From: a virus
IMG/VR virus record: IMGVR_UViG_3300007346_000233
Coordinates: 1 to 24,334 of that record
DNA length: 24,334 nucleotides
Reading direction: 5' to 3' (one strand)
Of the stretch, positions 2,853 through 23,959 are shown piece by piece; the stretch's first letter is position 1, and each line of letters opens with the position of its first letter. The translations under genes were made by a program, and so were the position numbers. The notes under the pieces were generated by a model, which was not told the origin of the DNA, did no database searches, and saw nothing but the letters and a program-made list of their open reading frames with translations.

Positions 2853-2885
2853 CTTAGATACAGGGCGTTAACGCCTGAGTCTAAG
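2853..2885 (+). promoter_or_regulatory. Stem-loop upstream of RNA polymerase gene
   Basis: The 71-base gap between the DUF932 and RNA polymerase genes can fold into a long hairpin. CTTAGA (2853-2858) pairs with TCTAAG (2880-2885), CA with TG, and GGCG (2864-2867) with CGCC (2872-2875) around a TTAA tetraloop, with a two-by-two internal loop and one bulged G. No T-run follows, so it is not a standard terminator. It may be an RNA processing site, or a DNA element overlapping the 26-nt repeat. Confidence 0.6.
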
Positions 2886-2888
2886 AGA
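2863..2888 (+). repeat. 26-nt direct repeat, copy 1 (candidate phage promoter)
   Basis: This 26-base stretch is identical to 15191-15216. It begins GG and contains the perfect 12-bp palindrome GGCGTTAACGCC (2864-2875), then a purine-rich end. Both copies lie a few tens of bases upstream of a strong AAAGGAGA ribosome site, here that of the phage RNA polymerase. Length and placement fit a single-subunit RNA polymerase promoter or a processing site. The function is inferred. Confidence 0.7.
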
Positions 2889-2920
2889 GAACACCTATTC
2901 AGCTAGCTCAAAGGAGACTT

Positions 2921-5356
2921 ATGGATAAATGGAATGCCCTCGATGATGAGGCTAGAAAGAAACGATACACTTATCAGCATCATCTAGAAGAAACTCTATC
3001 TGAACAATCCTTAAATAAGTACTGGAAGGGTTATACTAACTGTAAGACTTCTTGTGCTGCTGAGCAAGATCTCATCCAAGAATTCATTGTCAAGTGTACT
3101 AAATCATTTGATATGGTCAAGGAAGAGATAGACAAGGATGGGCGGATGCGCGAATGGGCGCCCGCCCTGTTCCTTGTCCCTTCTGATGTCTTAGCTGCCA
3201 TTGTGATCTCCCAACTCGTTGAAGATCTCGTAGATGGTAAGGATATTAGAAAGAAGATTTATGCTAATGGTGTAGATAACTTTTATTCTATTGCTTATCG
3301 TATAGGCAAAGAAACTAAGTTAATTGCTTCGTTTAGGTATGCCAAGTTAAATAATTCTGATGACTATCAATACGTCAATAAATACATTAAACGATGGGAT
3401 CGCAAAAGATTCCACAGGTTTACCAAACGATGCGATGCATTGCAATCTTGGTCTAAGCGTCAAACGCTTTACCTAGGTACTTGTTTGCTTAATGTTGCAA
3501 AAGCACACAAGGTAGTCAATGTAGAAAAGAAGCAATACAAGCAAGGTACAAAGACTCGTAGCTACAATGAGATCAGCATTGATCCTAATATCATGCTTGA
3601 ACTTATTCGTAGGCACGACTACTACCAGTTCTTAAGATTGCTTTACAGACCAATGTTGGTTCCTCCTGTACCACATACACCAGATATCCCTGGCGGATGT
3701 CTTATGATGGACAGAAGAAAGCCAACCGTTGGTGGAATCAGCAAAGCTAGTCAAGAATGTTTAGATGCTATAAACACACTTCAATGTACTGAATGGTCTA
3801 TTAATGAACAAGTACTAGAAGTAATGGATACCATCTATCGACGAAACTCTGCTGAATGCAACATGCCTGCATACAATTTCGAAGAGTTCACATTTCTTCG
3901 ACCTTATCCTGAGGACGGGACAACCGAGGAGAAGTTGTCATGGAAACATGATAAGGAAGACCAGTATGCTAAATGGTACAAAGAAGTTCAAAAGAGAGCG
4001 CAAATGGAAATTAGACTTTCCTTAGCTAAGAAGCTAGTTAAGACTTCTTTCTTTTATCACTCCTATACAATGGACTTCCGTGGTAGAGCGTATACAGTTA
4101 CTGAGATGCTTAGTCCTCAGAGCGGTGACTTTGATCGAGGATTGATCAAGTTTGCCACGCCCTGCAAGGTAACTAAGGAAGGTATGTACTGGCTTATGGT
4201 TCATGTAGCAAATACCTTTGATGGCGTAGACTTTGGTAATGGTCCCGCAAATGACAAGGTCTCATTCGACGACCGTGTCCGATGGGTCAAGGCTAATCTA
4301 CAAGATATCAAAGACATCGCTGCAGATCCTTACACATATACTATGTGGATGGATAATGAAACTATTAAGAAGAACCCAAGCTTCCAACGATTAGCTGCTG
4401 CTATTGACTTAGCAGAAGCATTGGAAACTGGATACTCCAGCGTACCTGTTCAGTTAGACGGATCTTGTAACGGTAGCCAGCATTGGTCTGCTATCATGAG
4501 AGACGCTGACTTAGCAGCAAAGGTAAATGTATCGCCTACCATTGTACCTGGCGATCTGTATCAGATGGTAGCAGACGTTGCCACTGATATCTGCAAAGAG
4601 GGTGAGACCAAGTGGCGTGAAATTTTCTATGAGTATTGGGAACAAAACATTCCTCGAAAAGTTGTAAAGAGATCTACCATGTGTGATGCATACGGTATTA
4701 CCGATCATGGCATTCGTAGATACTGTCGAGAAGAGGGACACTTAGAATGGATTGAGGATAATTCCCAAAAGACCCAAGCCGTAAACGAACTAGCCGTTGT
4801 TATCCGCAACGCACTAGACGGCGCTTTACAGTCTGCAAACAAAGGTAAGATCTTCCTGCAAGATCTCACAGAACTTTGTGCAGCTCATGGAAAACACGCC
4901 TCTTGGATCACCCCAACTGGATTCCGTGTTGTCAACAGATACACACAAGAACGAGTCAAGGTATTAGATACGCACATGTATCGTAACTCTAGGCTCCAAC
5001 TTAGTATTGTAGAAGACACAAAGAACCCAGCCCCCAACTTAGCGGTTCAAGCTGTACCTCCTAATTACATTCACAGCATTGATGCTGCTCATATGATGAA
5101 GACAATCAATAGAATGGCTGAGGAAGGAATCCCAAGCTATTCTATGATTCATGATTCATTTGGTTGTCACTGTTCATTCATACCTATTATGAGAGACGCA
5201 CTAGTAGAAACATTTTATGAAATACACAAAGAACCACTCCTTGAGAAATTCAAACAAGACATCGAGGATGTCGTCGGGCCTATCGGCAGGAAACTTCCCG
5301 AACAGGGAGACTTCGACATCGCATCTGTCAGAGACGCCGAGTATCTATTCGGTTGA
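2921..5356 (+). CDS. T7-like single-subunit DNA-directed RNA polymerase
   Basis: 811 aa (T7 gp1 is 883). The enzyme transcribes phage genes from its own promoters. The catalytic signatures are intact: MDFRGRAY; DGSCNGSQHW with D513 (T7 D537); KRSTMCDAYG with K583 and Y591 (T7 K631, Y639); and IHDSFG with D745 (T7 D812). The promoter specificity loop corresponds to the segment between TGFRVVNRY and the conserved PPNYIHS, and it is quite unlike T7, so the promoter will differ too. The start ATG has an excellent ribosome site (AAAGGAGAC). The N-terminal domain is shorter and divergent compared with T7. The gene lies downstream of the repeat/hairpin element, and its last 140 bases are overlapped by the next open frame. 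Confidence 0.97.
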   Translation: MDKWNALDDEARKKRYTYQHHLEETLSEQSLNKYWKGYTNCKTSCAAEQDLIQEFIVKCTKSFDMVKEEIDKDGRMREWAPALFLVPSDVLAAIVISQLVEDLVDGKDIRKKIYANGVDNFYSIAYRIGKETKLIASFRYAKLNNSDDYQYVNKYIKRWDRKRFHRFTKRCDALQSWSKRQTLYLGTCLLNVAKAHKVVNVEKKQYKQGTKTRSYNEISIDPNIMLELIRRHDYYQFLRLLYRPMLVPPVPHTPDIPGGCLMMDRRKPTVGGISKASQECLDAINTLQCTEWSINEQVLEVMDTIYRRNSAECNMPAYNFEEFTFLRPYPEDGTTEEKLSWKHDKEDQYAKWYKEVQKRAQMEIRLSLAKKLVKTSFFYHSYTMDFRGRAYTVTEMLSPQSGDFDRGLIKFATPCKVTKEGMYWLMVHVANTFDGVDFGNGPANDKVSFDDRVRWVKANLQDIKDIAADPYTYTMWMDNETIKKNPSFQRLAAAIDLAEALETGYSSVPVQLDGSCNGSQHWSAIMRDADLAAKVNVSPTIVPGDLYQMVADVATDICKEGETKWREIFYEYWEQNIPRKVVKRSTMCDAYGITDHGIRRYCREEGHLEWIEDNSQKTQAVNELAVVIRNALDGALQSANKGKIFLQDLTELCAAHGKHASWITPTGFRVVNRYTQERVKVLDTHMYRNSRLQLSIVEDTKNPAPNLAVQAVPPNYIHSIDAAHMMKTINRMAEEGIPSYSMIHDSFGCHCSFIPIMRDALVETFYEIHKEPLLEKFKQDIEDVVGPIGRKLPEQGDFDIASVRDAEYLFG

Positions 5357-5624
5357 TCCTACTACACTACAGGTTGTATGTGTGGACTGGATTGATGCTG
5401 TATGCAGTGGAAGCTCTAGTTGGCAAACCTTTGAGGAAATTGAAGAGGCTGTAGAGAACGGTCCTTCAAGAGTACGCACAGTAGGTATGCTCATCAAAGC
5501 AACTCCTGAATACGTAGCTCTTTGCGATACCTTGATGCTTGACGGTGACTCAGGTGGTTACGTTCATATCATTCCACGTGGTATGATTCAATCACTAAGG
5601 ACATTACAATGGCCAAGTCAGTAA
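5217..5624 (+). CDS. Hypothetical protein, start uncertain
   Basis: The frame runs for 135 codons, but its first part lies within the end of the RNA polymerase gene and reads as low-quality Ser/Asn/Thr-rich sequence. Protein-like sequence begins around residue 46 (VDPTTLQVVCVDWIDAVCSG and on) and continues with a WQTFEEIEE helix, RVRTVGMLIKATPEYVAL and a PRGMIQSL end. That pattern I associate with small conserved marine-phage proteins of unknown function. Possible starts are ATG 5217, ATG 5268 (GAGG directly before) or GTG 5382, 26 bases after the polymerase stop. None has a convincing ribosome site. The stop overlaps the next gene by 16 bases. Confidence 0.7.
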   Translation: MKYTKNHSLRNSNKTSRMSSGLSAGNFPNRETSTSHLSETPSIYSVDPTTLQVVCVDWIDAVCSGSSSWQTFEEIEEAVENGPSRVRTVGMLIKATPEYVALCDTLMLDGDSGGYVHIIPRGMIQSLRTLQWPSQ

Positions 5625-5950
5625 ACTTTAAGATTTCATCGGAAGGTGACTGCGAGCGAGTCTCTAAGGTATTTATTGAGTGGCTAAGAATCAAAAGCCC
5701 AGAGTTAAAGAAGGAGCAACATGTAGAAGCTCCGTCCGCTATCTGGGCGCAGCTGTTTTCAGAGATCTATGCAGATGAGATTGCCAATAATAATCTCACT
5801 GATGAAGCAGAGAATAATATTATTCAAATAAACTTCTACGTAGATTCAATCTCAAATAAACCAGATTTATCAAAGCTAAGCAATGAGGAGCTTATGGAGC
5901 TTCTAGAGGAGTTTCTAGAAGACTTCGATGAAGAAGAGGATAATGAGTAG
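5609..5950 (+). CDS. Hypothetical acidic protein, 113 aa
   Basis: Unknown protein. The first 80 residues are mixed helix and strand with FKISSEGDCERVSKVFIEWL at the start. The last 25 are an acidic amphipathic helix and tail (ELMELLEEFLEDFDEEEDNE). Such tails are found on proteins that bind basic partners or mimic DNA, but no family is recognised. It starts inside the end of the previous frame (16-base overlap) and its own end overlaps the next start, as expected in a tightly packed phage operon. Confidence 0.7.
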   Translation: MAKSVNFKISSEGDCERVSKVFIEWLRIKSPELKKEQHVEAPSAIWAQLFSEIYADEIANNNLTDEAENNIIQINFYVDSISNKPDLSKLSNEELMELLEEFLEDFDEEEDNE

Positions 5951-6266
5951 AACACTAAGTAATGTACGTAAATTTATTAAGGGTGAGTTCTCTGGCACTC
6001 GTCTTGAAATTATGAATACTAAGCCAGCAACCAAGCTACCTGATGGTACTCCTATTGTAACTTATGATTACAACACGGATAAACTTACTACCACTCAAGT
6101 TTTACATCAGCTAGGTCAGATTGATGTTCATGCCCCTCAAGTCTTTGATCTTCTTAACGAAGATGATAAGGTTGTCTATAGGTATGAAGGTCCGTCAATA
6201 GCCCAAGAGTGGAAGCTGCTTGCTAATGGGCAGCGTCCATTCTATAGAAACATGGGGCGAGCATGA
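5943..6266 (+). CDS. Hypothetical protein, 107 aa
   Basis: I chose ATG 5943 because AAGAGGATA precedes it; the in-frame ATG 5928 would extend further into the upstream gene. The N terminus is basic (MSRTLSNVRKFIKGEFSG), followed by a strand-rich middle (LPDGTPIVTYDYNTDKL) and a C-terminal region with Trp and Arg. No membrane segment and no recognised family. Its stop overlaps the metallophosphoesterase start by four bases (ATGA), so the two are probably translationally coupled. Confidence 0.7.
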   Translation: MSRTLSNVRKFIKGEFSGTRLEIMNTKPATKLPDGTPIVTYDYNTDKLTTTQVLHQLGQIDVHAPQVFDLLNEDDKVVYRYEGPSIAQEWKLLANGQRPFYRNMGRA

Positions 6267-6955
6267 GTAATGTATTAGTAATTGGAGATACGCATTGTCC
6301 AGCAATGCTTGATGCGTATCCAGACTTCCTAGCTTCAATCTATGAAGCCTGGGATTGTAATCATGTAGTACACATTGGTGACCTTGTGGACTTTCATGGT
6401 ATCAGTTTCCATACCAAAGAGTTTGGAATTCCTGATATTGAACGAGAGATTCAAGAGGCACGGGAGCAGGTGCAAACTCTCTGTGAGTTGTTTCCTGATG
6501 TAGATTATCTTACTGGTAATCACTCTGCTCTTCCAGTTCGACAAGCACAAGAAGCGGGGCTTCCTCCTTCTATGGTCTTGTCACTAGCAGAGATCTTAGA
6601 TTTACCAGATACTTGGAATGTGCTGCCTAGATATACTGATCTTATTATTGATGATGTAATCTATCGTCATGGTGATAAGGGTCGAAGCAACCAAACAAAC
6701 GCAGCATTCCTTAATGCACAGAATGAATTCATGTCTGTTGTACAAGGACACATGCATTCCCAAGGTGGAGTTCTCTATGGTGCAAATCAATCAAAGAGAT
6801 ACTTCGGTATGCAGGTAGGGTGTGGAACTGACCCACGTTCTCCCTATCTAAATTACAGCAAGATCTACAGCAAGCGTCCTATGCTAGGATGCGGTGTTGT
6901 ACTAGATGGTGAAAGAGCTATCTTCGAGCCTTTATTCCTCGAAGAGTGGCGTTGA
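6263..6955 (+). CDS. Calcineurin-like metallophosphoesterase
   Basis: 230 aa. All metal-binding blocks of the family are present in order: VIGDTH (D9, H11), HIGDLVDFHG (D40), LTGNH (N86, H87), YRHGDKG and VQGHMHSQG (GHxH). The protein should be a soluble two-metal phosphoesterase. The natural substrate is unknown; related phage enzymes are seen next to replication genes and could act on nucleotides, nucleic acid ends or phosphoproteins. The start overlaps the previous stop (ATGA). A 58-base gap with two small inverted repeats separates it from the SSB gene. Confidence 0.88.
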   Translation: MSNVLVIGDTHCPAMLDAYPDFLASIYEAWDCNHVVHIGDLVDFHGISFHTKEFGIPDIEREIQEAREQVQTLCELFPDVDYLTGNHSALPVRQAQEAGLPPSMVLSLAEILDLPDTWNVLPRYTDLIIDDVIYRHGDKGRSNQTNAAFLNAQNEFMSVVQGHMHSQGGVLYGANQSKRYFGMQVGCGTDPRSPYLNYSKIYSKRPMLGCGVVLDGERAIFEPLFLEEWR

Positions 6956-6962
6956 ATTATAT

Positions 6963-6997
6963 TGGGAATGGTTCCCATAGCCAAGTTAAGTGTTAAC
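6963..6997 (+). promoter_or_regulatory. Two small inverted repeats upstream of SSB gene
   Basis: Two perfect short inverted repeats lie in tandem: TGGGAA-TGG-TTCCCA (6963-6977) and GTTAA-GTG-TTAAC (6985-6997). Their three-base spacers make them more likely DNA sites than stable RNA hairpins. They sit just upstream of the SSB ribosome site (AAAGGACAG) in one of the few intergenic gaps of the replication operon, a plausible place for a promoter or operator. Function is inferred. Confidence 0.35.
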
Positions 6998-7013
6998 AGA
7001 AAGGACAGACACA

Positions 7014-7520
7014 ATGGCAAATCGTAACAATGAACTCTATTCTCCGGTCGTTGAGGTTGCATGGGCAAACCTTCGTAAGCCTGATGAGTTCCGTGGTAGC
7101 AAGAAGCATGACATTCAGGTTGTTGTCAACGATGATTTCAAGAAGCAGCTTGATTCTTTCAACATGCCTCTCAACGGTACTTACACCGGCAAGGAGAGCG
7201 GTGATACCATCGTCAAGGTTAAGACGACTGAGTTCACCAAGCAGAACAAGGATCAGTACGGTCGCATCGTCGATTCACGCGGCGTGAAGACCGACTACTT
7301 CCCCGCGAAGGGCGACAAGGTTCGCCTTAAGATCTGGGCACGTGAGTGGGAAGGCAAGATGAGCCTGTTCCTTAGCGGTGTGCAGGTCATCGAGGCCAAC
7401 AACTCCAGCAGCAGTGGCTGGGAAGCCCACGACGATGGTTTCGTGGCAGAAGAGTCATCAGCTCCGGTAGTAGACAGCGAGACTACTCCCGATGTTAGCG
7501 ATGACGATATCCCGTTCTGA
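7014..7520 (+). CDS. Single-stranded DNA-binding protein (T7 gp2.5-like)
   Basis: 168 aa. I chose ATG 7014, which follows AAAGGACAGACACA at normal distance; an in-frame ATG at 6990 lies in the inverted-repeat leader. The N-terminal two thirds is the OB-fold-like part with conserved PDEFRGSKKHDIQVVV and the strand KGDKVRLKIWAREWEGKMSLFLSGVQVIE. The last 40 residues are acidic and disordered and end in DDDIPF, the typical acidic-aromatic SSB tail that contacts replisome partners. It coats ssDNA and coordinates polymerase and primase-helicase. Codons are C-rich, like the capsid gene, fitting high expression. The stop overlaps the RusA start (TGATG). Confidence 0.85.
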   Translation: MANRNNELYSPVVEVAWANLRKPDEFRGSKKHDIQVVVNDDFKKQLDSFNMPLNGTYTGKESGDTIVKVKTTEFTKQNKDQYGRIVDSRGVKTDYFPAKGDKVRLKIWAREWEGKMSLFLSGVQVIEANNSSSSGWEAHDDGFVAEESSAPVVDSETTPDVSDDDIPF

Positions 7521-7924
7521 TGACGTTATTGTATGAAGCTACGTTTCCAATCAACCCCGTAGCAGCCAGCCGACCTAGAGTAACTACCAAAGGTCACTCG
7601 TATTACGCTGGTCCATACAAGAACTTTCGGAAAGATATTCAACCCCTCATTGAGGAGCTGGCCAAGGGCTTCGTGCCCTTGGTCGGCCCTCTTTCGGTGG
7701 ATGTAGATATCTGGGTACAACGTCCTAAGTCTACTAAGTTGCTATCTCCCCGAGCCGATATTGATAATTATTTAAAGGCTATCTTTGATTCATTCAATGG
7801 AATCTTATGGGAAGATGACTCGCAAATCACAATCGTACATGCTATGAAAGCATGGACTGAAAGCAACGAAGTAGAGGGTTCATTCGACATCCGTATAGAA
7901 AAAGACTGGAACTTCGATGAGTGA
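7520..7924 (+). CDS. RusA-family Holliday junction resolvase
   Basis: 134 aa, close to the usual RusA length of about 120. Conserved features are the N-terminal FPINPVAASRPRVT, a basic AGPYKNFRKD region, and the catalytic block SPRADIDNYLKAIFDSFNGILWEDDSQI, with the Asp residues that bind metal in RusA (equivalents of D70, D72 and D91). It would cut four-way junctions and branched replication intermediates. It occupies the slot where T7 has endonuclease I (gp3), an apparent functional replacement. It overlaps both the SSB stop and the primase-helicase start. Confidence 0.88.
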   Translation: MTLLYEATFPINPVAASRPRVTTKGHSYYAGPYKNFRKDIQPLIEELAKGFVPLVGPLSVDVDIWVQRPKSTKLLSPRADIDNYLKAIFDSFNGILWEDDSQITIVHAMKAWTESNEVEGSFDIRIEKDWNFDE

Positions 7925-9623
7925 AGACAGTTATGTTATTGCTAGAGAGCAATGTCCCAAGTGTGCATCTCAAGGCCACGATAACTCCGAGGACAACCTA
8001 GCAAAGTACAGCGATGGTCATGCATACTGTTATAGATGCAAGTATTATATGAAAGGTGATATGATTTCAACACCACGACAACCTATCGGCGATTGGAAGC
8101 CTTTGTACGGAGACTACTCCGATCTCCCAGACCGTCGTCTAAATGAAGAAACACTGCGGAAGTTTGGCTACCAACAGATTAACCATCCTGAGAAAGGATG
8201 CATCCACATTGCCAACTTCTATTCCAACGGTACTCTTGTAGCACAAAAGTATCGCGGTCCTGACAAGCAGTTCAGGTGGCGAGGCGAAGCTCGTAGTGCT
8301 GGCTTGTTTGGTCAGCATTTGTTCGATGGCAGTAACAGTCGTCGATTGGTTATCACTGAAGGTGAGATCGACGCTATGTCGGTTTACCAAGTCAACGGTG
8401 GCTGGCCTGTTGTATCACTCAATGGTGGTACTGGTAATGCAGAGAACAATATCAAGGATAACCTAGAGTGGATCTCTAAGTTCCCAGAAGTTGTTCTTAT
8501 GTTTGACAGCGACGATGCAGGTCGAGAGGCAGCCGTTAAGTGTGCTCAGCTTCTACCGCCTGGTCGTACTAAGATTGCATCACTTCCTAGAAAGGATGCT
8601 AATGAAATGCTCCTTTCAATGGATGGCAAGGGAATTGTCAATGCAATCTTCCAAGCCAAGCTCTATAGCCCAGATGAGATCTTACATGTCAAGGATATTG
8701 CAGATTCAGATAATGAAGACATGCAAGTCTATGCCTATCCTTGGGACAAGCTTAGCGAGTTCCTTCTAGGCCAACGCAGCGGTGAGGTTAATCTGTGGTG
8801 CTCGGGTACTGGTTCAGGTAAGTCAACAATCCTACGTGAGATTGCCCACCATCATCTTGAAGAAGGTCGATCGGTAGGTATGATCATGCTAGAAGAATCT
8901 CCTGAAGAAACCAGAGATGACATGATCTCCTTGCTTATCAACAAGCCGGTTAGAGCAATTCGTGCTAATCGTATTATGAATGATCTTCGTAAGAAGATGG
9001 GCAAGGATCCTATTAACATTGAGTTTTTTGATGATATGGATCATGAGGAATACTCAGCAGCAAGAGAGCATCTTGAGTCTACCAACCTGTACATCTATGA
9101 CCATCTTGGTAACAGCGCAATGCAAAATATCATGGCTCGTATGGAGTACATGGCTATTTCATTGGGCGTAGATGTTATCATTCTTGACCACATTACTGCA
9201 CTGGCTGCGGGATTGATGGGACAAGACAGTGACGAGAATCAGAGCGAGCGCATCCTGATTGATACTGTTATGAAGCAGCTTCGATCTTTGTCCGTTCGAA
9301 CTGGTGTACATGTTGATATCGTGTCTCAGCTTAAGAAGACGGATAAAGCTTTTGAGGAAGGTACTAGAATTACCTTGCAGGATCTTCGTGGTTCTGGTAG
9401 CTTAGCGTCTGTGCCAAATACCATCATTGCACTTGAGCGAGATCGTCAAGCAACGTGTGAGTATGAAGCGAATACGACTGTCGTCAGAGTTCTAAAGAAT
9501 AGACTCACTGGTCGAGCAGGCGTAGCGTCTTGTTTATATTATGACCGTAAGAAGGGTAGGCTCCAAGAGGTGCCTTTCCAAATCTCTGAAGGTCATGTCG
9601 TTTTAGATCCTAATAGTAAGTAG
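7917..9623 (+). CDS. Primase-helicase (T7 gp4-like)
   Basis: 568 aa (T7 gp4A is 566). Domains in order: a zinc-binding domain with C13, C16, C38 and C41; a TOPRIM primase domain with ITEGEIDAM (E148) and VVLMFDSDDAGREA; and a RecA/DnaB-type helicase with Walker A GTGSGKST (297-304, K302), Walker B VIILDHI (D424), and a later SQLKK segment. It unwinds DNA ahead of the phage polymerase and makes primers. The start overlaps the end of the RusA gene. All key residues I can check are present, so it should be functional. Confidence 0.96.
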   Translation: MSEDSYVIAREQCPKCASQGHDNSEDNLAKYSDGHAYCYRCKYYMKGDMISTPRQPIGDWKPLYGDYSDLPDRRLNEETLRKFGYQQINHPEKGCIHIANFYSNGTLVAQKYRGPDKQFRWRGEARSAGLFGQHLFDGSNSRRLVITEGEIDAMSVYQVNGGWPVVSLNGGTGNAENNIKDNLEWISKFPEVVLMFDSDDAGREAAVKCAQLLPPGRTKIASLPRKDANEMLLSMDGKGIVNAIFQAKLYSPDEILHVKDIADSDNEDMQVYAYPWDKLSEFLLGQRSGEVNLWCSGTGSGKSTILREIAHHHLEEGRSVGMIMLEESPEETRDDMISLLINKPVRAIRANRIMNDLRKKMGKDPINIEFFDDMDHEEYSAAREHLESTNLYIYDHLGNSAMQNIMARMEYMAISLGVDVIILDHITALAAGLMGQDSDENQSERILIDTVMKQLRSLSVRTGVHVDIVSQLKKTDKAFEEGTRITLQDLRGSGSLASVPNTIIALERDRQATCEYEANTTVVRVLKNRLTGRAGVASCLYYDRKKGRLQEVPFQISEGHVVLDPNSK

Positions 9624-9636
9624 GAGAGCAGATCCC

Positions 9637-11319
9637 GTGCGACTGGTATTCGACATCGAGGCTGATAACCTGTACTGGAATGTCACGGAAGTATACTGTA
9701 TTGTAGCTCACGATATTGATACGCGCCAAACATGGAAGTTTACACCTGAAAATATCAAAGAGGGTGTTAGATTTATCATGTCAGCGGATACCCTCATCGG
9801 ACATAACATAGTTACTTTCGATATTCCCGTTTTAGAAAAACTATTCAACGTGGAGTACAAGGGCAAGGTACTAGATACGCTCGTCGTTTCTAGGCTTATG
9901 TATCCTGATGTAAGACAGCATCCATTTGGAGGCAATGGTCTTAAGCAGTGGGGTCAACACCTAGGTAACTATAAGATTGAGTTCAATGATTGGTCGCATT
10001 ATACAGAGGAAATGCTTGAATACTGTGTCCAAGATGTGTTACTGAACTACGATATTCTTCAAGCTCAAAAAGACTTTATCAAGGAATATGAGAAGGTTGT
10101 AAAGTTTGAGATCTTAGTTGCTCAGATTTGTTTCAAACAACAACTGCATGGGTTTGGCTACGATCTTAGTAAAGGCATCGACCTTGAACAGATCTTGGCC
10201 ATTGAACGGGCTGATCATCTAGACCAACTTCAATTGATCTTTCCTGACAAGGTAGAAGAACGATGGTCTCAGAAGACTGGTAAGCAATTGAAGTCTAAGA
10301 TTACTCCGTTTAATCCACAGAGCAATATCCAAGTCTATGAACGTCTTATTGAAAAGTATCCACATGTTCGTAAGATTATTCCAGAAACTGAAAAGGGGAA
10401 TCCTCAGGTTGATTCGTTGGTACTGGCTGAACTATCTAAGGCTGGGGTCACCGAGGCTGAGCAGATTCTAAAGTATCGAGATAATCTAAAGCTTGAAGGA
10501 CAACTGAAAGATTGGAACGACAGAGCATCCAAATCTAAGGATGGTCGTATCCACGGTGAAGTAAACACCCAAGGTGCTGGAACAGGACGATGCACTCATG
10601 CTAATCCAAACGTGGCTCAAGTGGCCAAGGATAAGCGAATGAGGGCGTTGTGGAATCCCGGCATCAAAGACTATGTACAAGTTGGTTGTGACTTGTCTGG
10701 TCTAGAACTGAGAATGCTAGCACATTATATGTATGAATACGACAACGGTGCTTATGCCGATGTTATCTTGAACGGAGATGTTCATACAATGAATCAGAAA
10801 GCTGCTGGTCTTGCTACAAGAGACCAAGCTAAGACCTTTATCTATGGCTTCTTGTATGGAGCTGGTGATGCAAAGATTGGCACCATTGTAGGTGGCAGTC
10901 GTAAGAAAGGTCAAGAACTAAAAGAAAAGTTCTTGGCTCAGTTACCAGCACTAAAGAAAGTCCTTGATGCCGTTCAATGGTCTTTTCTTGAACGAGGTGA
11001 GGTTCAACTTCCTGATGGGAGATGGGTCAAATGTAGATCCGAACATGCAGCTCTAAATACTATGCTCCAAGGCGCCGGTGCCATTGTATCCAAGTATTGG
11101 ATGGTGGTAGCTAATGCTAGGCTTAAACATCTAGGCAACAAAGTAATTCAAATGGCTTATGTTCATGACGAATTACAATTTGCTGTGCATAAAGATGTAG
11201 CCGACAAGGTCTGTAAGATCTTAGAGGCAGCTAGCTTAGAAGCTGGTGAACGTCTTGGAATCAAGATGCCGATTCATTCTGAAGCGTGCATTGGTTCTAA
11301 CTGGCAGGAAACACACTAA
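9637..11319 (+). CDS. Family A DNA polymerase with 3'-5' exonuclease
   Basis: 560 aa, shorter than T7 gp5 (704). The exonuclease motifs are intact: D6 and E8 (FDIEADN), D62 (GHNIVTFDIP), and Y129/D133 (YCVQDVL). Polymerase motif A is VGCDLSGLELRMLAHYM (D352, T7 D475), motif B RDQAKTFIYGFLYGAG, and motif C AYVHDELQFA (D511, T7 D654). The O-helix segment is the same as T7, including the Tyr at the sugar-discrimination site. The distance from exonuclease to motif A is much shorter than in T7, so the thioredoxin-binding insertion appears absent. The start is GTG (9637) following AGGAGAG. It is the replicative polymerase. Confidence 0.96.
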   Translation: MRLVFDIEADNLYWNVTEVYCIVAHDIDTRQTWKFTPENIKEGVRFIMSADTLIGHNIVTFDIPVLEKLFNVEYKGKVLDTLVVSRLMYPDVRQHPFGGNGLKQWGQHLGNYKIEFNDWSHYTEEMLEYCVQDVLLNYDILQAQKDFIKEYEKVVKFEILVAQICFKQQLHGFGYDLSKGIDLEQILAIERADHLDQLQLIFPDKVEERWSQKTGKQLKSKITPFNPQSNIQVYERLIEKYPHVRKIIPETEKGNPQVDSLVLAELSKAGVTEAEQILKYRDNLKLEGQLKDWNDRASKSKDGRIHGEVNTQGAGTGRCTHANPNVAQVAKDKRMRALWNPGIKDYVQVGCDLSGLELRMLAHYMYEYDNGAYADVILNGDVHTMNQKAAGLATRDQAKTFIYGFLYGAGDAKIGTIVGGSRKKGQELKEKFLAQLPALKKVLDAVQWSFLERGEVQLPDGRWVKCRSEHAALNTMLQGAGAIVSKYWMVVANARLKHLGNKVIQMAYVHDELQFAVHKDVADKVCKILEAASLEAGERLGIKMPIHSEACIGSNWQETH

Positions 11320-13217
11320 TGCCTACTTGGTATTCAATTAGAAACAGACTGGAGGCTGGCGAAGTAAGAGCCAGAAACTCCTTTGAACGATTCTTAACGT
11401 CGTTCATCACTTCTTATGGATGCTTGGATGTATGGTATAGATCCGTCGCTTCAGACTCTTCGGAGCTGGAGTGTCGGATCTTTTACATCCAATCAGATGA
11501 TTCCTATGTAGCTACAGAGACATGGGAACGTACGGGGGAACGCCCTGAGTTCTGGCTTCAGATGAAAGGTACTGCAGCTACAATCAGAGCCACTATTATT
11601 TCACTGTTACCTTACATTTCACAACTCCATTCAAAGAAACGACACGGTGAATGGAACTTCGGACCAATAGAACCATTCCTTGGTGAAGGGTCTATTACTG
11701 TTGATGTAGGAGGTAACACAATTATTACTGGTAGGTTTGGCGACATTGCTTTGTATAGCAATGGAGTTGAACTTGACTGGGAAGATATTGTATGGGACTT
11801 TGATGGATGCGCTACAACAGCAACCTGTCCACCAACAACTTCTGTATGCTTTTCAAACTTAGGCTATCCTATTGAAGATTGTACAGGTACAGTTGGAACA
11901 TGTGTACGAGGTAGCTGTGGATCGTGGATTGCAACGTATCCTGAAAGCTTAGCTGAGTGCGATGGTACTTGGTATGTTGGGGAAGACCTAACTAGCAAGA
12001 CTGGTGATTACTGGGATACTGTTTTCAGTTGCCCAGATCCAACAGGAACTTGTGTTACAGGTGATTGTACACTTGGGTTTACAGCATCCTATCCAGTAAC
12101 AGAAGCAGCTTGTACTGGCGACTGGTTTAAGGGCGTAGATCTTTCTAGCGAAGGTCCAGCTTATTGGGATGAATACTACAACTGCGAAGATCCAATTGGA
12201 TGCTGTGTAGTAGGAACAACTTGTGACTGGGATTCTATTTCTGTTACCACTGAAAGCGAATGTACTACATTAGGTGGCACATGGACTGAAGGAGTTAAGG
12301 GTAAAGAATGTACAATAGCACAATACGAAGAAGACAATAACTGTAACCCAGCTCCTCCGCAAAGTATTTCTTATGTAGTTACTTACTATGTAACTGATGC
12401 TCAGTTCTCAGCGCCTTTATTTCCCGGTATTGCAAGTCCTGCAGGACCTGTGTTTGATACTTCTGCATATGAAAACAATTGGTATACACATCCAGCTGTT
12501 ACACCCGGTTCCCAAGTAACATGGCCTTTAGCACTACAAGCTTCGTCCCCAGATTTTTGTGCAGGTTATACGCTTAATAACTATAGCTATAATAAAACAC
12601 AAGTAAGTGGTTCGTTAACTTTGATTTACAACTTTAGTTATCTTAGTGGTGATGAAGACGAAGCTGTATACGGTATTGATAGTATTGTAGGACACCCTGG
12701 TTTTAATTTAAATGACCAACTCGTAACGTTTAACACCGATGTTTGGTCGGATGATGCCTGTTGTTTTCCTTTTGATTGCTGCACAACAAATCCAACGTAT
12801 TGCGAAGGTATACACTACTATCAGCACTTGGGTACAATGACTACAATCAACGCTACCTTAAATGGAACACTAACTCGTACTTATAACGCAATTACAGGCA
12901 ATACTGATTACGCTGGTACAGTAACAGTACGGCCTCAGGATACTAGTCTAAGTAATACTACTATTGAATTTGGCTCTAATGTCTCATACTTTAGTACAGG
13001 AATCACAGATAGCCCTTCAAAATGGGTTTCAGCTGGTGCTGCTAGAGATGATTACCCAAAGAAAATTCACATCGGTTCTGTTACAATTCAAAATAATACT
13101 GATGTATCTTGGGGAGATAATCTTGTCCCTTATACTTATGAAGCAGGCGCAGACGGTTTATTCTTAGCTGGTGTACAAGCATACCGTCTTACTAATACAA
13201 TTTTGGAAACAGCATAA
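11319..13217 (+). CDS. Large Cys-rich repeat protein, beta-type, unknown function
   Basis: 632 aa, not assigned to a family. Residues 1-165 form a mixed domain rich in Trp and Tyr. From about 165 to 345 the protein is Cys-rich, with three tandem repeats of about 50 residues (near 192, 241 and 292). Each begins G-T/C-C-V-x-G-x-C and has a later Cys followed by a Trp-containing stretch, a Glu/Ser-rich loop and a closing Cys. Residues 360-632 are Thr/Ser/Asn/Tyr-rich with predicted strands and a second Cys cluster (CCFPFDCCTTN), resembling an exposed virion or adhesin-like protein. There is no signal peptide. It starts on the polymerase stop (TAATG) and sits, oddly, between replication genes. 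Confidence 0.85.
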   Translation: MPTWYSIRNRLEAGEVRARNSFERFLTSFITSYGCLDVWYRSVASDSSELECRIFYIQSDDSYVATETWERTGERPEFWLQMKGTAATIRATIISLLPYISQLHSKKRHGEWNFGPIEPFLGEGSITVDVGGNTIITGRFGDIALYSNGVELDWEDIVWDFDGCATTATCPPTTSVCFSNLGYPIEDCTGTVGTCVRGSCGSWIATYPESLAECDGTWYVGEDLTSKTGDYWDTVFSCPDPTGTCVTGDCTLGFTASYPVTEAACTGDWFKGVDLSSEGPAYWDEYYNCEDPIGCCVVGTTCDWDSISVTTESECTTLGGTWTEGVKGKECTIAQYEEDNNCNPAPPQSISYVVTYYVTDAQFSAPLFPGIASPAGPVFDTSAYENNWYTHPAVTPGSQVTWPLALQASSPDFCAGYTLNNYSYNKTQVSGSLTLIYNFSYLSGDEDEAVYGIDSIVGHPGFNLNDQLVTFNTDVWSDDACCFPFDCCTTNPTYCEGIHYYQHLGTMTTINATLNGTLTRTYNAITGNTDYAGTVTVRPQDTSLSNTTIEFGSNVSYFSTGITDSPSKWVSAGAARDDYPKKIHIGSVTIQNNTDVSWGDNLVPYTYEAGADGLFLAGVQAYRLTNTILETA

Positions 13218-13363
13218 TGCAAGGACTAGGTGACTTACTTTATTACGTCTTTCATTACACAGGCATTCATTGGTTAGTGCATAAGTTTAGTTACTATACT
13301 GGCTTTGAATGTGGATGTAATGCTCGACGTAAGAAACTTAATAAGAGATTTCCTTTTAAATGA
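13217..13363 (+). CDS. Small conserved-type phage protein, 48 aa
   Basis: A 48-codon frame exactly fills the space between two larger genes. Its ATG overlaps the previous TAA (TAATG) and its TGA overlaps the next ATG (ATGA). The first 30 residues are aromatic and hydrophobic (GDLLYYVFHYTGIHWLVHKF), possibly an amphipathic or membrane-surface helix. The end is FECGCNARRKKLNKRFPFK, a CxC followed by a basic Arg/Lys-Leu-Asn motif that I recall from many small marine-phage proteins of unknown role. The hydrophobic part is too charged and short for a confident holin call. Confidence 0.75.
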   Translation: MQGLGDLLYYVFHYTGIHWLVHKFSYYTGFECGCNARRKKLNKRFPFK

Positions 13364-13791
13364 AACATAAAATAATTCTTCGTGGTTGGAGGGATATCAA
13401 CAACGATTGGCGATCTAGATGGCTTCGGTATGGGACTGGCGATGAATTAACTCACTGTACCTTAAGTGTTGGTGACTTAACTCTCCATGTAAATTACAAA
13501 GGAAGTAACTGGTATCCGACTCATCGTTTGTTTAATACCTACGATAGCTACTTTGAATTACAAGATGCTATATACATAGGCGAAGTAAAACGACCCGTTT
13601 ATATCAAACCAGATCCGGGCAGTACATGGCAGGTTATCAAATGGAGATATCTGTTTGGTCCTCGACCTAATTGCTGCACTACGGCGTGTATAGACGCGTT
13701 AAGACAAAACGGAGTCGATTGCCCTGAGCTTATAATGCCACATAAACTTATTGATTACTTTGATAATGATTATATTAGGCCTGAGCGGTAA
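13360..13791 (+). CDS. Permuted papain-like (NlpC/P60 or YiiX type) protein, tentative
   Basis: 143 aa. An early His in a strand context (ELTHCTLSVGDL, H32) and a later Cys at the start of a helix (PNCCTTACIDALRQNG, C105/C106 and C110) give the His-before-Cys order of circularly permuted papain-fold hydrolases. Members cleave peptide or amide bonds in cell wall or lipids, but the phage versions are mostly uncharacterised. There is no signal peptide. It could contribute to cell wall or protein processing; with only these motifs to go on, the enzyme call is tentative. The start overlaps the 48-aa gene and the end overlaps the dNMP kinase by 26 bases. Confidence 0.75.
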   Translation: MKHKIILRGWRDINNDWRSRWLRYGTGDELTHCTLSVGDLTLHVNYKGSNWYPTHRLFNTYDSYFELQDAIYIGEVKRPVYIKPDPGSTWQVIKWRYLFGPRPNCCTTACIDALRQNGVDCPELIMPHKLIDYFDNDYIRPER

Positions 13792-14491
13792 AGCTCGGAC
13801 AGGAAAATCAAGACTATGTAAAGAATTATACGATGCAGCTGAGCGTTTAGGTTGGGACATTGAAATCAAACCGTTTGCCGGTCCCCTAAAGAAACACGTT
13901 GTGGAAACACTAGGGTTTACTAAAGAAAGTAATCCTAGTATGTATCGCAAGTACTGCCAAAAGATTGGCGCTGAAGAACGCAAGAAAGATCCAGATCATT
14001 GGGTAAAGCTATGGCATAAAGATATGCTAGAAGAATTCAAGACTGAGATGGAAACAAGCGAGCGTCCTGTTCTGTACTTGGTAGACGATGTGCGATATGC
14101 CAACGAGATTAAGACTCTTAATAGACCAGATGTAAATGCAACTATCTTGTTTGTTAAGCACGGTAAACGACAGATTGAAGATCCTGATGGAGCATGGAGA
14201 CAGCACGAATCAGAAAACTTAGCTAACACTTATGAAAAAAGTCCAGATGAATACTTAAAGAACGAGGTTGGTTATCACTTTGTAGTGCATAACGACAAAC
14301 CAGAAGAAGAGATTCAAAAGTGGGCTACTAATTTCATTAGTTACTTAGCCGCATCTGATCCGTGCTTATGTGAAACATGTGTTGCAAATTATGAAATGCG
14401 AGAACCAAACATAGACAAAATAGATGAGGAGCTAAAAGAGTTTCTCAACGATCTTTTAGGAGAAGAAGATGAAGAAGACGGCGATGCCTGA
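13766..14491 (+). CDS. Deoxynucleoside monophosphate kinase
   Basis: 241 aa from ATG 13766; a TTG at 13751 is in frame but has no better ribosome site. The P-loop GKARTGKS (8-15) is followed by the dNMP kinase pattern: FAGPLKKHVVETLGF, DPDHWVKLWHKDM, LYLVDDVRYANEI and VKHGKRQIEDPDGAWRQHESE. It phosphorylates dNMPs released from host DNA to dNDPs. The last 50 residues are an added tail with a CLCETC Cys motif (C200, C202, C205) and a run of acidic residues, which I do not know from the standard family. The kinase gene overlaps both neighbours and leads into the exonuclease gene. Confidence 0.88.
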   Translation: MIILGLSGKARTGKSRLCKELYDAAERLGWDIEIKPFAGPLKKHVVETLGFTKESNPSMYRKYCQKIGAEERKKDPDHWVKLWHKDMLEEFKTEMETSERPVLYLVDDVRYANEIKTLNRPDVNATILFVKHGKRQIEDPDGAWRQHESENLANTYEKSPDEYLKNEVGYHFVVHNDKPEEEIQKWATNFISYLAASDPCLCETCVANYEMREPNIDKIDEELKEFLNDLLGEEDEEDGDA

Positions 14492-15206
14492 CGTTGCTAT
14501 TCTAGATGCAGATATCATTGCGTATAAGGCAGCGTGCTGGGCTGAAGCTCATAGTTCTTCTTTGTCGGATATCAAAGATAGACTATCCTTTGATGTTAAC
14601 TATTGGACTCCTCCGGGTTTGTCTAGACGTATGCTGGCATTTTCTTGTAGTAGGCAGGATAATTATCGTAAAGATTATTGGCCAAGCTACAAAGAGAATC
14701 GAACAGGTAAGCCAAGACCTAAGTTCTTAGAGGTCTGTCAAAGGATCCTTCAAGAAACAGAGCAGACCGTTGCCTTGCCTCGCCTTGAGGCAGACGATAT
14801 TGTAGGCATCGGTATGAGTTCTGGGACTATGGTTGGAGTCAGCCTTGACAAAGATCTTAAGTCTTGCCCTGGTTGGTACTGGAATCCAGAAAAGCTGGAC
14901 TTCCCTATTTATATTAACGAAATAACAGCTAATCTATGGTTTCATAAGCAATGGCTTATGGGCGATTCAACAGACCACATTCCGGGTATCCCTAAAGTTG
15001 GTCCTGTTAAGGCCCAAAAGTTATTGGACTCTGTAACCCACGTTAACTGGACTCCCCTAGTCTTACATGAATACGAAAAACGAGGCTTTGATCTGGACTA
15101 TTGTCTGGCTCAGGCCCGTTGTGTCCGTATCCTTCGAGATGGAGAGTGGGACAAGGAGGCCAAGGTCCACGTGCCTTGGTCTCCTTGCTGGGGCGTTAAC
15201 GCCTGA
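14469..15206 (+). CDS. 5'-3' exonuclease (T7 gp6-like, flap endonuclease family)
   Basis: 245 aa. Acidic metal-binding blocks of the family: ILDADIIAYKAA (D13, D15), SYKENRTGKPRPKF (arch region), LPRLEADDIVG, VSLDKDLKSCPG, and the helix-hairpin-helix block GDSTDHIPGIPKVGPVKAQKLL. In T7 this enzyme degrades host DNA and removes RNA primers. It is preceded by GGAGAAGAAG within the acidic tail of the kinase gene (23-base overlap). The end of the gene contains a 14-bp inverted repeat and the start of the second 26-nt repeat, whose palindrome runs up to the stop codon. Confidence 0.93.
   Translation: MKKTAMPDVAILDADIIAYKAACWAEAHSSSLSDIKDRLSFDVNYWTPPGLSRRMLAFSCSRQDNYRKDYWPSYKENRTGKPRPKFLEVCQRILQETEQTVALPRLEADDIVGIGMSSGTMVGVSLDKDLKSCPGWYWNPEKLDFPIYINEITANLWFHKQWLMGDSTDHIPGIPKVGPVKAQKLLDSVTHVNWTPLVLHEYEKRGFDLDYCLAQARCVRILRDGEWDKEAKVHVPWSPCWGVNA
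15152..15187 (+). promoter_or_regulatory. Strong 14-bp stem-loop inside the 3' end of the exonuclease gene
   Basis: CAAGGAGGCCAAGG (15152-15165) pairs over its whole length with CCTTGGTCTCCTTG (15174-15187), with one G-U pair, around an 8-base loop. No T-run follows; the next element, 3 bases later, is the GGCGTTAACGCC repeat. In the mRNA the stem would be very stable. It could be a processing signal (RNase III-like), a barrier protecting the upstream message, or part of the regulatory element that precedes the dUTPase gene. Confidence 0.7.
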
Positions 15207-15216
15207 GTCTAAGAGA
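15191..15216 (+). repeat. 26-nt direct repeat, copy 2 (candidate phage promoter)
   Basis: Identical to 2863-2888. The palindrome GGCGTTAACGCC occupies 15192-15203 and forms the last codons of the exonuclease gene. The rest covers the stop and leads into the gap before the dUTPase gene. This copy lacks the CTTAGA arm found upstream of copy 1 but has the 14-bp stem-loop instead. Being shared by two leader regions with strong ribosome sites, it is the best candidate for a recognition site of the phage RNA polymerase. Confidence 0.7.
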
Positions 15217-15240
15217 AACTAAGAACTAAGCTATACTAAG
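15208..15240 (+). repeat. Short direct repeats (A/T)CTAAG x4 in dUTPase leader
   Basis: TCTAAG at 15208 and ACTAAG at 15218, 15225 and 15235 give four near-identical hexamers in 33 bases, with spacings of 10, 7 and 10. They directly precede the AAAGGAGAG ribosome site. They may be protein-binding sites, or simply keep the leader unstructured. Confidence 0.5.
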
Positions 15241-15254
15241 CAAAGGAGAGACAC

Positions 15255-15758
15255 TTGAATAGCTATACTACTAATCATAATGAATATACAAATGAGTCTT
15301 CTGTAACAACCGAGAGCCAAGTATTCTACATGCCCTCGATTAAGATCTATACATATCCAGACGCTAAGATGCCAACGGTAAGCACCCAAGGTAGCGGTGG
15401 CTTGGATCTATTTGTATATGATTATAAGGTTGAAGATCATCAAACTACCGTCTTTACAGGCGCTCATGTGGAGATTCCCCTTGGGCACGTAGGCTTGGTA
15501 ATACCTAGGTCTTCGACTGGAACCAAGGGATTCCGTCTCAAGAATACGGTTGGTGTCATTGATGCTGACTACCGAGGCGAGATCCGCCTTGTATGTGATA
15601 GATTTGAGAACGAGGAAGATGTAGTAGAGGTGGGAGTAAAGATTGCCCAGCTCGTTATTCTTCCTGTATGTCCATTCCCCGTGGAGCAGGTATCAAGTCT
15701 TGAGGATTTAAGTGAAACAGAAAGAGGGGCTAATGGATTCGGTTCAACAGGACTTTGA
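15255..15758 (+). CDS. dut: dUTP diphosphatase (dUTPase)
   Basis: 167 aa from TTG 15255, chosen because AAAGGAGAG sits directly upstream. A later ATG (15330, residue 26) fits the usual N terminus (MPSIKIYTYPDAKMP) but lacks a ribosome site. All five trimeric-dUTPase motifs are present: GGLDLF (49-53 region), PRSSTGTKG (84-92), GVIDADYRGEI (100-110), KIAQLVILP and RGANGFGSTG (157-166). Motif 2 has PRSS where PRSG is usual. It removes dUTP and supplies dUMP. The end overlaps the reductase start. Confidence 0.93.
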   Translation: MNSYTTNHNEYTNESSVTTESQVFYMPSIKIYTYPDAKMPTVSTQGSGGLDLFVYDYKVEDHQTTVFTGAHVEIPLGHVGLVIPRSSTGTKGFRLKNTVGVIDADYRGEIRLVCDRFENEEDVVEVGVKIAQLVILPVCPFPVEQVSSLEDLSETERGANGFGSTGL

Positions 15759-17643
15759 TTATTCAGACGATTGGAGTGAGTTTAGTAAGTTCATCCATCT
15801 GAGTAAGTACTCAAGGTGGAATGAAGATAAGAGGCGGCGAGAGACTTGGGGCGAAACAGTAGACCGCTGGTGGGTTTGGCTCAATGAGCAGGCCGCTAAG
15901 AACGGCGTTACTGAAGTTCCGTCTTTCGTTAAGGATCTGGTCTATAAGCGAGAGGTCATGCCAAGTATGAGATCTCTAATGACTGCCGGTAAGGCAGCTA
16001 ACAGAGACAATACTTGCATCTTTAATTGTTCATATCTGGAGTTGGACTCCCCAATTGCATTAGCGGAGCTGCTGTATATTCTTATGAATGGTACAGGAGT
16101 TGGCTACAGTGTGGAGAAGCGGGTCGTTGATAAGTGGCCTGCTATTCCAGAGAACATTGAACGCAACGAGGGCCACTACCTTGTAGCCGGAGATAACAAG
16201 GCAGGCTGGGCGGACATGGTTAAGCAATTACTTAATTGTTTAATTAATGGAAAGCACCCTACATGGGAACTCCATAACATCCGCCCTGCTGGTGCTAGAC
16301 TTAAGACCTTCGGAGGGCGCGCATCTGGTCCCGAACCCCTAGAAGATTGTCTTCGGTTTATTACCAAGACAATCTATGGGGCAAGGGGCCGTAAGCTGCG
16401 TCCTATTGAAATCCATGACATGGCTTGTGTCATCGCTAATTCAGTCATCGTTGGCGGCGTGAGACGCTCGGCTATGATTAGTCTATCAGATCTTGACGAT
16501 CATGAGATGGCTAGAGCCAAGTCAGGGAACTGGTGGGAGAACCACTCCTACCGTTCCCTCGCCAATAACAGCGCAGTCTATGAAGAGAAGCCAGCAATGG
16601 ATGTCTTCATGGAGGAGTGGCTAAATATTTACCGCAGTTATAGTGGTGAAAGAGGTATCTTTTCCCGGCAAGCTGCTCGGCATTGTGCTAATCAGATTAA
16701 TCGAAACTCGGATCATTACTTTGGTACTAATCCCTGTGGTGAGATTACTCTACGGCCTATGCAGTTCTGTAACTTGTCTGAGGTTGTCTTGCGGCCTAAG
16801 GATGGCATCCGTGCGGTGTTTGATAAGGTAGAGGCAGCAACCATTATTGGGTGCATCCAAGCTACCTGCACGCACTTCCCCTATCTTCGAAAGAAGTGGC
16901 GGGACAATACCGAAGAGGAGGCGCTGCTTGGCGTCAGCCTTACCGGCATCTGTGACTACGAGCCGTCATACGGAGAGTTGCTTGACTACCGAGAAAAGGC
17001 TCATAACGTTGCTGCAGAGTGGAGCACAAAGCTCGGCATTAAGATGCCTGCTGCTATCACTACGGTGAAGCCCAGCGGTACTGTATCGTGCCTTGTTGAC
17101 TCTAGTTCCGGCATCCATGAGCGATGGTCACAATACTACATCCGGCGTGTCCGCATGGACCGCAAGGATCCTATGTGCCAAATGATGATGGATCAAGGTA
17201 TCCCCGGCGCTCCATGCGTCAACAATCCTGATAACACCTATGTCTTTGACTTTCCTATTGGAAGCCAAACACCAGTTAAGCATAAGTCGGCCAATGGTCA
17301 GCTTCGAACTTGGGGACTGGTAAAGGAAGGATACACTGATCACAATCCAAGTGTTACTATTACTTATCAACCACATGAGTATATGGAACTTGGAGCTGAG
17401 CTTTATGGTAATTACTGGGAGATTGCACAAGGACTTTCGTTCTTGCCAAAGTCTGAACACGTATACCAACAGGCTCCTTATGAATCCATTACAGCTGAAG
17501 AGTATGAGCAGCTAGCTAAGGCTATGCCTACGATGGACTGGTCTGCTCTCAGTAAATATGAAATGGAAGATAACACTAAGTCCAGTCAAGCATTCGCTTG
17601 CACTGGCGGTGCCTGCGAAATCGTAGACACTACTGAAGGTTAA
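15733..17643 (+). CDS. nrdJ: Adenosylcobalamin-dependent (class II) ribonucleotide reductase
   Basis: 636 aa from ATG 15733, which follows AGAGGGG; the in-frame ATG 15712 has no such site. It resembles the monomeric Lactobacillus-type triphosphate reductase. The active-site pattern is intact: C99 (CIFNCSY), C335 and E337 (NPCGEI), C346 (FCNLSE, the same 11-residue spacing as C408-C419 in L. leichmannii), and the C-terminal redox pair C623/C628 (CTGGAC). It makes dNTPs without oxygen or a second subunit but needs host cobalamin, and this type is common in marine podoviruses. The 26-base overlap with dut indicates coupled expression. A terminator follows directly. Confidence 0.94.
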   Translation: MDSVQQDFDYSDDWSEFSKFIHLSKYSRWNEDKRRRETWGETVDRWWVWLNEQAAKNGVTEVPSFVKDLVYKREVMPSMRSLMTAGKAANRDNTCIFNCSYLELDSPIALAELLYILMNGTGVGYSVEKRVVDKWPAIPENIERNEGHYLVAGDNKAGWADMVKQLLNCLINGKHPTWELHNIRPAGARLKTFGGRASGPEPLEDCLRFITKTIYGARGRKLRPIEIHDMACVIANSVIVGGVRRSAMISLSDLDDHEMARAKSGNWWENHSYRSLANNSAVYEEKPAMDVFMEEWLNIYRSYSGERGIFSRQAARHCANQINRNSDHYFGTNPCGEITLRPMQFCNLSEVVLRPKDGIRAVFDKVEAATIIGCIQATCTHFPYLRKKWRDNTEEEALLGVSLTGICDYEPSYGELLDYREKAHNVAAEWSTKLGIKMPAAITTVKPSGTVSCLVDSSSGIHERWSQYYIRRVRMDRKDPMCQMMMDQGIPGAPCVNNPDNTYVFDFPIGSQTPVKHKSANGQLRTWGLVKEGYTDHNPSVTITYQPHEYMELGAELYGNYWEIAQGLSFLPKSEHVYQQAPYESITAEEYEQLAKAMPTMDWSALSKYEMEDNTKSSQAFACTGGACEIVDTTEG

Positions 17644-17652
17644 CCCCCGTCT

Positions 17653-17689
17653 GAGAGGGATCCGGCTAACGCTGGGTCTCTCTCTTTTT
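17653..17689 (+). terminator. Intrinsic terminator after nrdJ
   Basis: GAGAGGGATCC (17653-17663) pairs fully with GGGTCTCTCTC (17674-17684), with two G-U pairs, around a 10-base loop and followed by TTTTT (17685-17689). It lies 10 bases after the nrdJ stop and separates the nucleotide metabolism block from the virion genes. Confidence 0.88.
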
Positions 17690-23913: not shown

Positions 23914-23959
23914 CAGTCTCGCCAGCGGTAATCAATGGCGTTAAATCCGCAATACTTGA

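Follow-up and report, generated by a model that had tools for sequence, protein, structure and literature searches.

Phages that encode a T7-like RNA polymerase (RNAP) provide several described systems with which the locus reported here can be compared. LUZ100 carries a phage promoter immediately ahead of its RNAP gene, and phi1 has been proposed to amplify the RNAP (PMC10134795). VSW-3 has the promoter TTAATTGGGCCACCTATA in four 21-bp copies (PMC9624206), while the genome of Syn5 is served by only two promoters, with the sequence ATTGGGCACCCGTAA (PMC3950665). In T7-class promoters generally, positions -8 to -12 are specific and positions -7 to +1 are common (PMC9596486).

The DNA analysed here, referred to as the window, is an entire IMG/VR record of 24,334 bases and represents a genome fragment. 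The sequence GGGCGTTAACGCCTGAGTCTAAGAGA is present in it in exactly two copies (2863–2888 and 15191–15216), both on the + strand and identical across 26 nt. The original prediction had described two identical 26-nt copies with a 12-bp palindrome, and both the coordinates and the exactness are confirmed. A chance origin had been judged very unlikely, in agreement with our estimate that only 1.0e-7 exact 26-nt same-strand repeat pairs are expected; the pair is the longest exact repeat of the window, with the runner-up 11 bases shorter (15 nt). The record's 24,334 bases contain no further copy; a palindrome match with two mismatches at 23937 was rejected as one. The 3′ end of copy 1 is followed after 22 nt by a Shine-Dalgarno sequence and after 32 nt by the ATG at 2921 (RNAP), and that of copy 2 after ~25 nt by a Shine-Dalgarno sequence and after 38 nt by the TTG at 15255 (dUTPase). 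The repeats therefore do stand before the ribosome sites of RNAP and dUTPase, as had been proposed, but the spacing of 35–65 bases given for them has to be corrected to 22 and ~25 nt. The last codons of the exonuclease gene and its TGA stop (15204–15206) lie inside copy 2.

Table 1. Positions of the repeat copies and neighbouring features in the window
Feature	Position	Strand	Basis or remark
Shine-Dalgarno AAGGAG of RNAP gene	2911..2916	+	sequence
Copy 1, conserved 28-nt block GGGCGTTAACGCCTGAGTCTAAGAGAGA	2863..2890	+	exact repeat; kept before RNAP in G003, G006
Palindrome GGCGTTAACGCC in copy 1	2864..2875		12 bp
T7-like single-subunit RNA polymerase, 811 aa	2921..5356	+	phrog_414 E 1.8e-156; PF00940 E 2.3e-79
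5′-3′ exonuclease	14469..15206	+	phrog_107 E 5.9e-43
Copy 2, same 28-nt block (GGGCGTTAACGCCTGAGTCTAAGAGAAA)	15191..15218	+	exact repeat; kept in relatives
Palindrome GGCGTTAACGCC in copy 2	15192..15203		12 bp
dUTPase, TTG start, first gene behind copy 2	15255..15758	+	PF00692 E 7.1e-23
Ribonucleotide reductase (RNR), B12-dependent type, second gene behind copy 2	15712..17643	+	PF02867, PF21995, weak matches
Intrinsic terminator closing dUTPase-RNR unit	17653..17684	+	14-pair stem + T-run

We suggest, with a probability of roughly 0.88, that the repeat serves as promoter for the T7-like single-subunit RNAP that the phage itself encodes; this reading, already made in the original prediction, is supported computationally by every prediction that could be tested on sequence. 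A T7-type RNAP with its catalytic residues (D537, K631, Y639, H811, D812) all intact is encoded in the same genome. The asymmetric motif of 17–23 nt looked for in such a promoter is present as a 28-nt block, found at four gene positions and on the coding strand. Its layout, TTAA / CGCCT / GAGTCTA / AGAGA, matches the parts of the T7 class: an AT-rich 5′ part, a specificity region, a TA-rich start-proximal part and a purine-rich initial transcribed sequence. The TATA-like element reads TCTA in the motif-carrying clade.

In size, in the order of AT-rich 5′ part, specificity region and TA-rich start, and in the purine-rich first transcribed bases, the block resembles the T7 and T3 promoters (TAATACGACTCACTATA, AATTAACCCTCACTAAA), and the T3 RNAP shares Asp748, Arg756 and Gln758 with the window RNAP; however, the promoter sequences are not alike, the window phage has Val at T7 position 746, and its copies are far fewer. 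LUZ100 is similar in its T7-like RNAP (28% identical), in a promoter placed directly before the RNAP gene, in a distinctive motif and in Asp at T7 position 748, but differs in having an unrelated sequence (ATTACCACACAG...), eight promoters and temperate features (PMC10134795). With VSW-3, the window phage shares a promoter of 18–21 bp, few intergenic copies per genome and TTAA near the 5′ end, whereas the specificity region of VSW-3 is GGGCCA (CGCCTG here), one of its copies lies behind the RNAP gene, and its RNAP is 25% identical. Few promoters, long transcription units and a TAA end before the starting G are common to Syn5, in which, unlike here, the promoter lies inside the RNAP gene, the sequence is unrelated and the RNAP is 23% identical.

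Copies of the block were found in a series of uncultured relatives, designated below by G and L numbers. An exact 21-nt scan of 2.9 million viral contigs gave 10 stretches across 9 other contigs, and 16 stretches matched a 19-nt pattern in which one base was left free. The copies fall into four site classes: before the RNA polymerase (a; window, G003 and G006), at the exonuclease 3′ end before dUTPase or RNR (b; window, G002–G005, G007–G009, L025 and L026), before the large terminase (c; G003, L003, L023/L027 and others), and, in the 69.5-kb contig G003, close to the right end behind a 15-kb gene (d). G003 alone has all four (13,574, 26,620, 46,893 and 69,149). A search for further copies, proposed earlier as a check, thus gave none more in the window but did give copies before late genes in relatives, where the additional copies stand ahead of the terminase gene and of internal virion genes, as well as close to the genome's right end. 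Every copy lies on the gene strand. In a weight-matrix scan the block sites score 38–50 bits, and the only other signal above the shuffled level in the clade contigs is the palindrome's own reverse-strand reading.

As pattern scans select for the pattern, searches were also run from the protein side. All 11 of the terminase loci of clade members recovered by protein search carry the block ≤100 nt before the ATG, with ≤1 mismatch in the 21-nt core. An RNAP protein search with single-sequence patterns found no viral contig, and one with an alignment recovered only two close relatives; both carry the block. When k-mers were counted in all gene leaders of ten contigs, the block was the only one widely shared. 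The promoter sequence appears to be new, with no counterpart among published or deposited promoters and phages: a BLAST comparison of the repeat plus flanks with 50,697 phage records gave no match, the core string is absent from 5.39 million open papers, and the near-exact 19-nt pattern had 0 matches in 84,980 bacterial and archaeal species (one genome each).

Several further features of these contigs were observed. A stem-loop of varying sequence lies between motif and terminase start in L037 (2453–2484), L038, L039, L041 and L003; L042 and L046 lack it. Strong hairpins stand directly 5′ of sites a and d in G003, and could insulate transcription units. The gene before the right-end copy is a single ORF of 5015 codons (L016:3051–18095, equal to G003 54051–69095), and its 5015-aa protein, scanned in thirds, had no PHROG or family match in any of them. 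The first few hundred bases of the G003 left end (L013:1–1000) are GC-rich, unlike the remainder, and a chimeric assembly is possible there. In the window, four tRNA genes (Lys, Ile, Arg, Leu; 781–1253) lie ahead of the RNAP region, and a DUF932 protein gene (2007–2849) is found immediately 5′ of the RNAP promoter candidate; G003 and G006 have a gene with similar size and start at its position, and it may be the last early gene. Right behind the RNAP stop, with a one-base shift, a frame (5357–5624) is conserved at the protein level in G003 and G006 (VVCVDWID/IVCIDWYD/VVCVDWWD). Neither the window nor G003 shows an ATG, GTG or TTG close to the beginning of this frame, while in G006 a TTG overlaps the RNAP stop; the frame may be entered by reinitiation, at a rare start codon or by a frame shift. 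This stretch was rejected as a motif site, being conserved coding sequence without a shared motif.

The conserved block can be written RGGCG-YTAACGCCTKAGTCTAAGAGARA, and other changes are rare. Between orthologous sites the 28 nt are 79–100% identical (96–100% at the RNAP sites), and the flanks have random identity in many pairs when 40 nt are compared ungapped, with 20–38% at the RNAP sites, close to random; some of the other flanks are higher because they include the upstream gene or belong to a near relative. At the exonuclease end the block spans three codon phases, with the protein ending ...WGVNA* in the window, ...AGR* in L004 and ...WALTPESKRN* in G003/G007, so it is the DNA (or RNA) that has been kept and not the protein end. 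Judging from these sequences, selection at the exonuclease end is on DNA, not on protein. The original prediction had argued from the window that copy 2 was kept despite coding constraint, and the three codon phases are a stronger answer than the window alone could give. A computed promoter of KP34, picked as a repeat of >20 nt, failed in vitro (PMC6834552), but the present case differs from it because of the clade-wide conservation, the four gene borders, the three reading frames and the tie to the specificity loop.

That tie follows from a comparison of polymerases. Residues 746, 748, 756 and 758 of T7 RNAP make base contacts, and an alignment of the window RNAP with those of T7, T3, SP6, Syn5, VSW-3 and LUZ100 places V, D, R and Q, respectively, at these positions of its specificity loop. 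Asp748 is the residue of T3, and N748D appears in T7 RNAP evolved toward T3 promoter use (PMC4633624). Among motif carriers the loop is 89–95% identical. A sister clade (G031, G035, G029, G030) was reached by exonuclease protein search; its RNAPs are ~40% identical to that of the window, with 50–58% identity in a palm/fingers stretch versus 5–16% in the specificity loop. The motif is absent from the sister-clade genomes, in which the exonuclease end before RNR carries TATAGGTGGAGTATAAAG or variants at the position equivalent to that of the block. Start-proximal GAGTNTA (GGGTNTA in some) is common to both clades but the upstream part differs, which is the same division as in T7-class promoters (PMC9596486). 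When the collection was scanned for the sister motif, four stretches came up, every one of them in the sister clade and two in G031; the proposed second copy in G031 is situated in noncoding DNA that is TATA-rich, and a match at G031 40,037 was set aside as it falls inside the terminase gene. Part of the similarity of the sister motif at the exonuclease end could be due to protein conservation. The specificity region thus seems to change together with the RNAP loop, a single clade contrast that gives good but not final support. An RNAP loop unlike that of T7 and a new promoter sequence to go with it had been expected, and indeed the sequence is new and its presence tracks the loop. An AlphaFold RNAP model from three sequences had a mean pLDDT of 33 and was left uninterpreted.

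The transcription start is predicted at A2884 or G2885 in copy 1 and at A15212 or G15213 in copy 2. With +1 at G2885, Asp748 would face a C at both -11 and -10, as it does in T3; with +1 at A2884, Arg756/Gln758 would be opposite C-9/T-8, again T3-like, the sister motif would have its TATA at -4 to -1, and +1 would be A in both clades. Both registers agree in part with the residue-by-base contacts of T7/T3, and we lean towards A2884 without claiming it.

The palindrome, treated earlier as a key feature, did not keep that role. Its 12 bp cover under half of the conserved block. Relatives vary most in its left half and hardly at all in its right half, and conservation peaks in the 13–15 nt that follow on the right. 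Among 16 distinct sites, the four-pair stem that it could form is broken in six (G006-a, G003-d, L042, L025, L037 and L038) and compensated in one (L041, GTCG..CGAC), and stem pair counts do not clearly exceed those of shuffle controls. The palindrome is real but secondary, and is not essential.

A more novel reading, which we consider unlikely, is a composite of a T7-class promoter and an upstream determinant, the partly palindromic RGGCG ~17–22 nt before the start, acting as an extended polymerase contact or as the site of a regulator of all four promoters. It is a point against the plain promoter reading that conservation continues upstream for ~5 nt beyond a T7-class footprint; the left GGCG is more conserved than flanking DNA. 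The same ~5 left-side nt, together with the perfect 12-bp palindrome in both window copies, could be taken to suggest an operator for a dimeric DNA-binding regulator at several gene borders, which we regard as very improbable given that the conservation is asymmetric, with its peak to the right of the palindrome, and that the left-right match is broken at 6 of 16 sites. Slightly less probable still is an RNA stem-loop serving as a processing or stability signal in the transcripts. The two copies of the window fold well as RNA, with z of -4.5 and -3.0, and the L041 site is compensated, but the stem is broken uncompensated at 6 of 16 sites, G003 and G006 do not have the strong additional pairing seen in copy 1 (UUAGA/UCUAA), and the most conserved part is outside the stem. 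Conservation as a hairpin only, named beforehand as the outcome that would speak against a promoter, was looked for and is absent.

In T7-like phages promoters double as origins, the T3 record annotates a primary origin beside promoter phi1.05, and one copy of the block is close to the G003 right end; nevertheless, most copies lie directly ahead of the translation starts of gene modules, with several per genome, making a replication origin or priming site in place of an expression promoter highly improbable. Recognition by a host sigma factor or an alternative one is exceedingly improbable, since, despite its position before genes on the coding strand, the repeat lacks a -35/-10 arrangement, the number of sigma-70-like matches in the window (37) is about that expected by chance (33.8), the one near-exact pattern is absent from the bacterial and archaeal species scanned, and its presence tracks the phage RNAP loop.

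If the repeat is the promoter of the phage RNAP, the first RNAP would come from transcription of the early region by the host polymerase. The phage enzyme would then bind the block, with its specificity loop reading about -12 to -8 (CGCCT), GAGTCTA would be melted, and transcripts would start at the A or G of CTAAGAGA. Firing of copy 1 would let the RNAP amplify itself together with the downstream replication genes, while copy 2 would drive dUTPase and RNR up to the terminator at 17653, and read-through past this point may reach the capsid genes. A terminator of different sequence is present at the equivalent place after RNR in G003 and G002. With four promoters per ~70 kb the polymerase must be processive, as in Syn5.

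On this promoter reading, an uncultured phage group would gain a transcription map, in which four promoters cut a ~70-kb genome into units of 13–22 kb. The RNAP, ~26% identical to that of T7, and its promoter would add a pair distant from those in use, and the contrast with the sister clade would constitute a natural experiment on joint change of polymerase and promoter.
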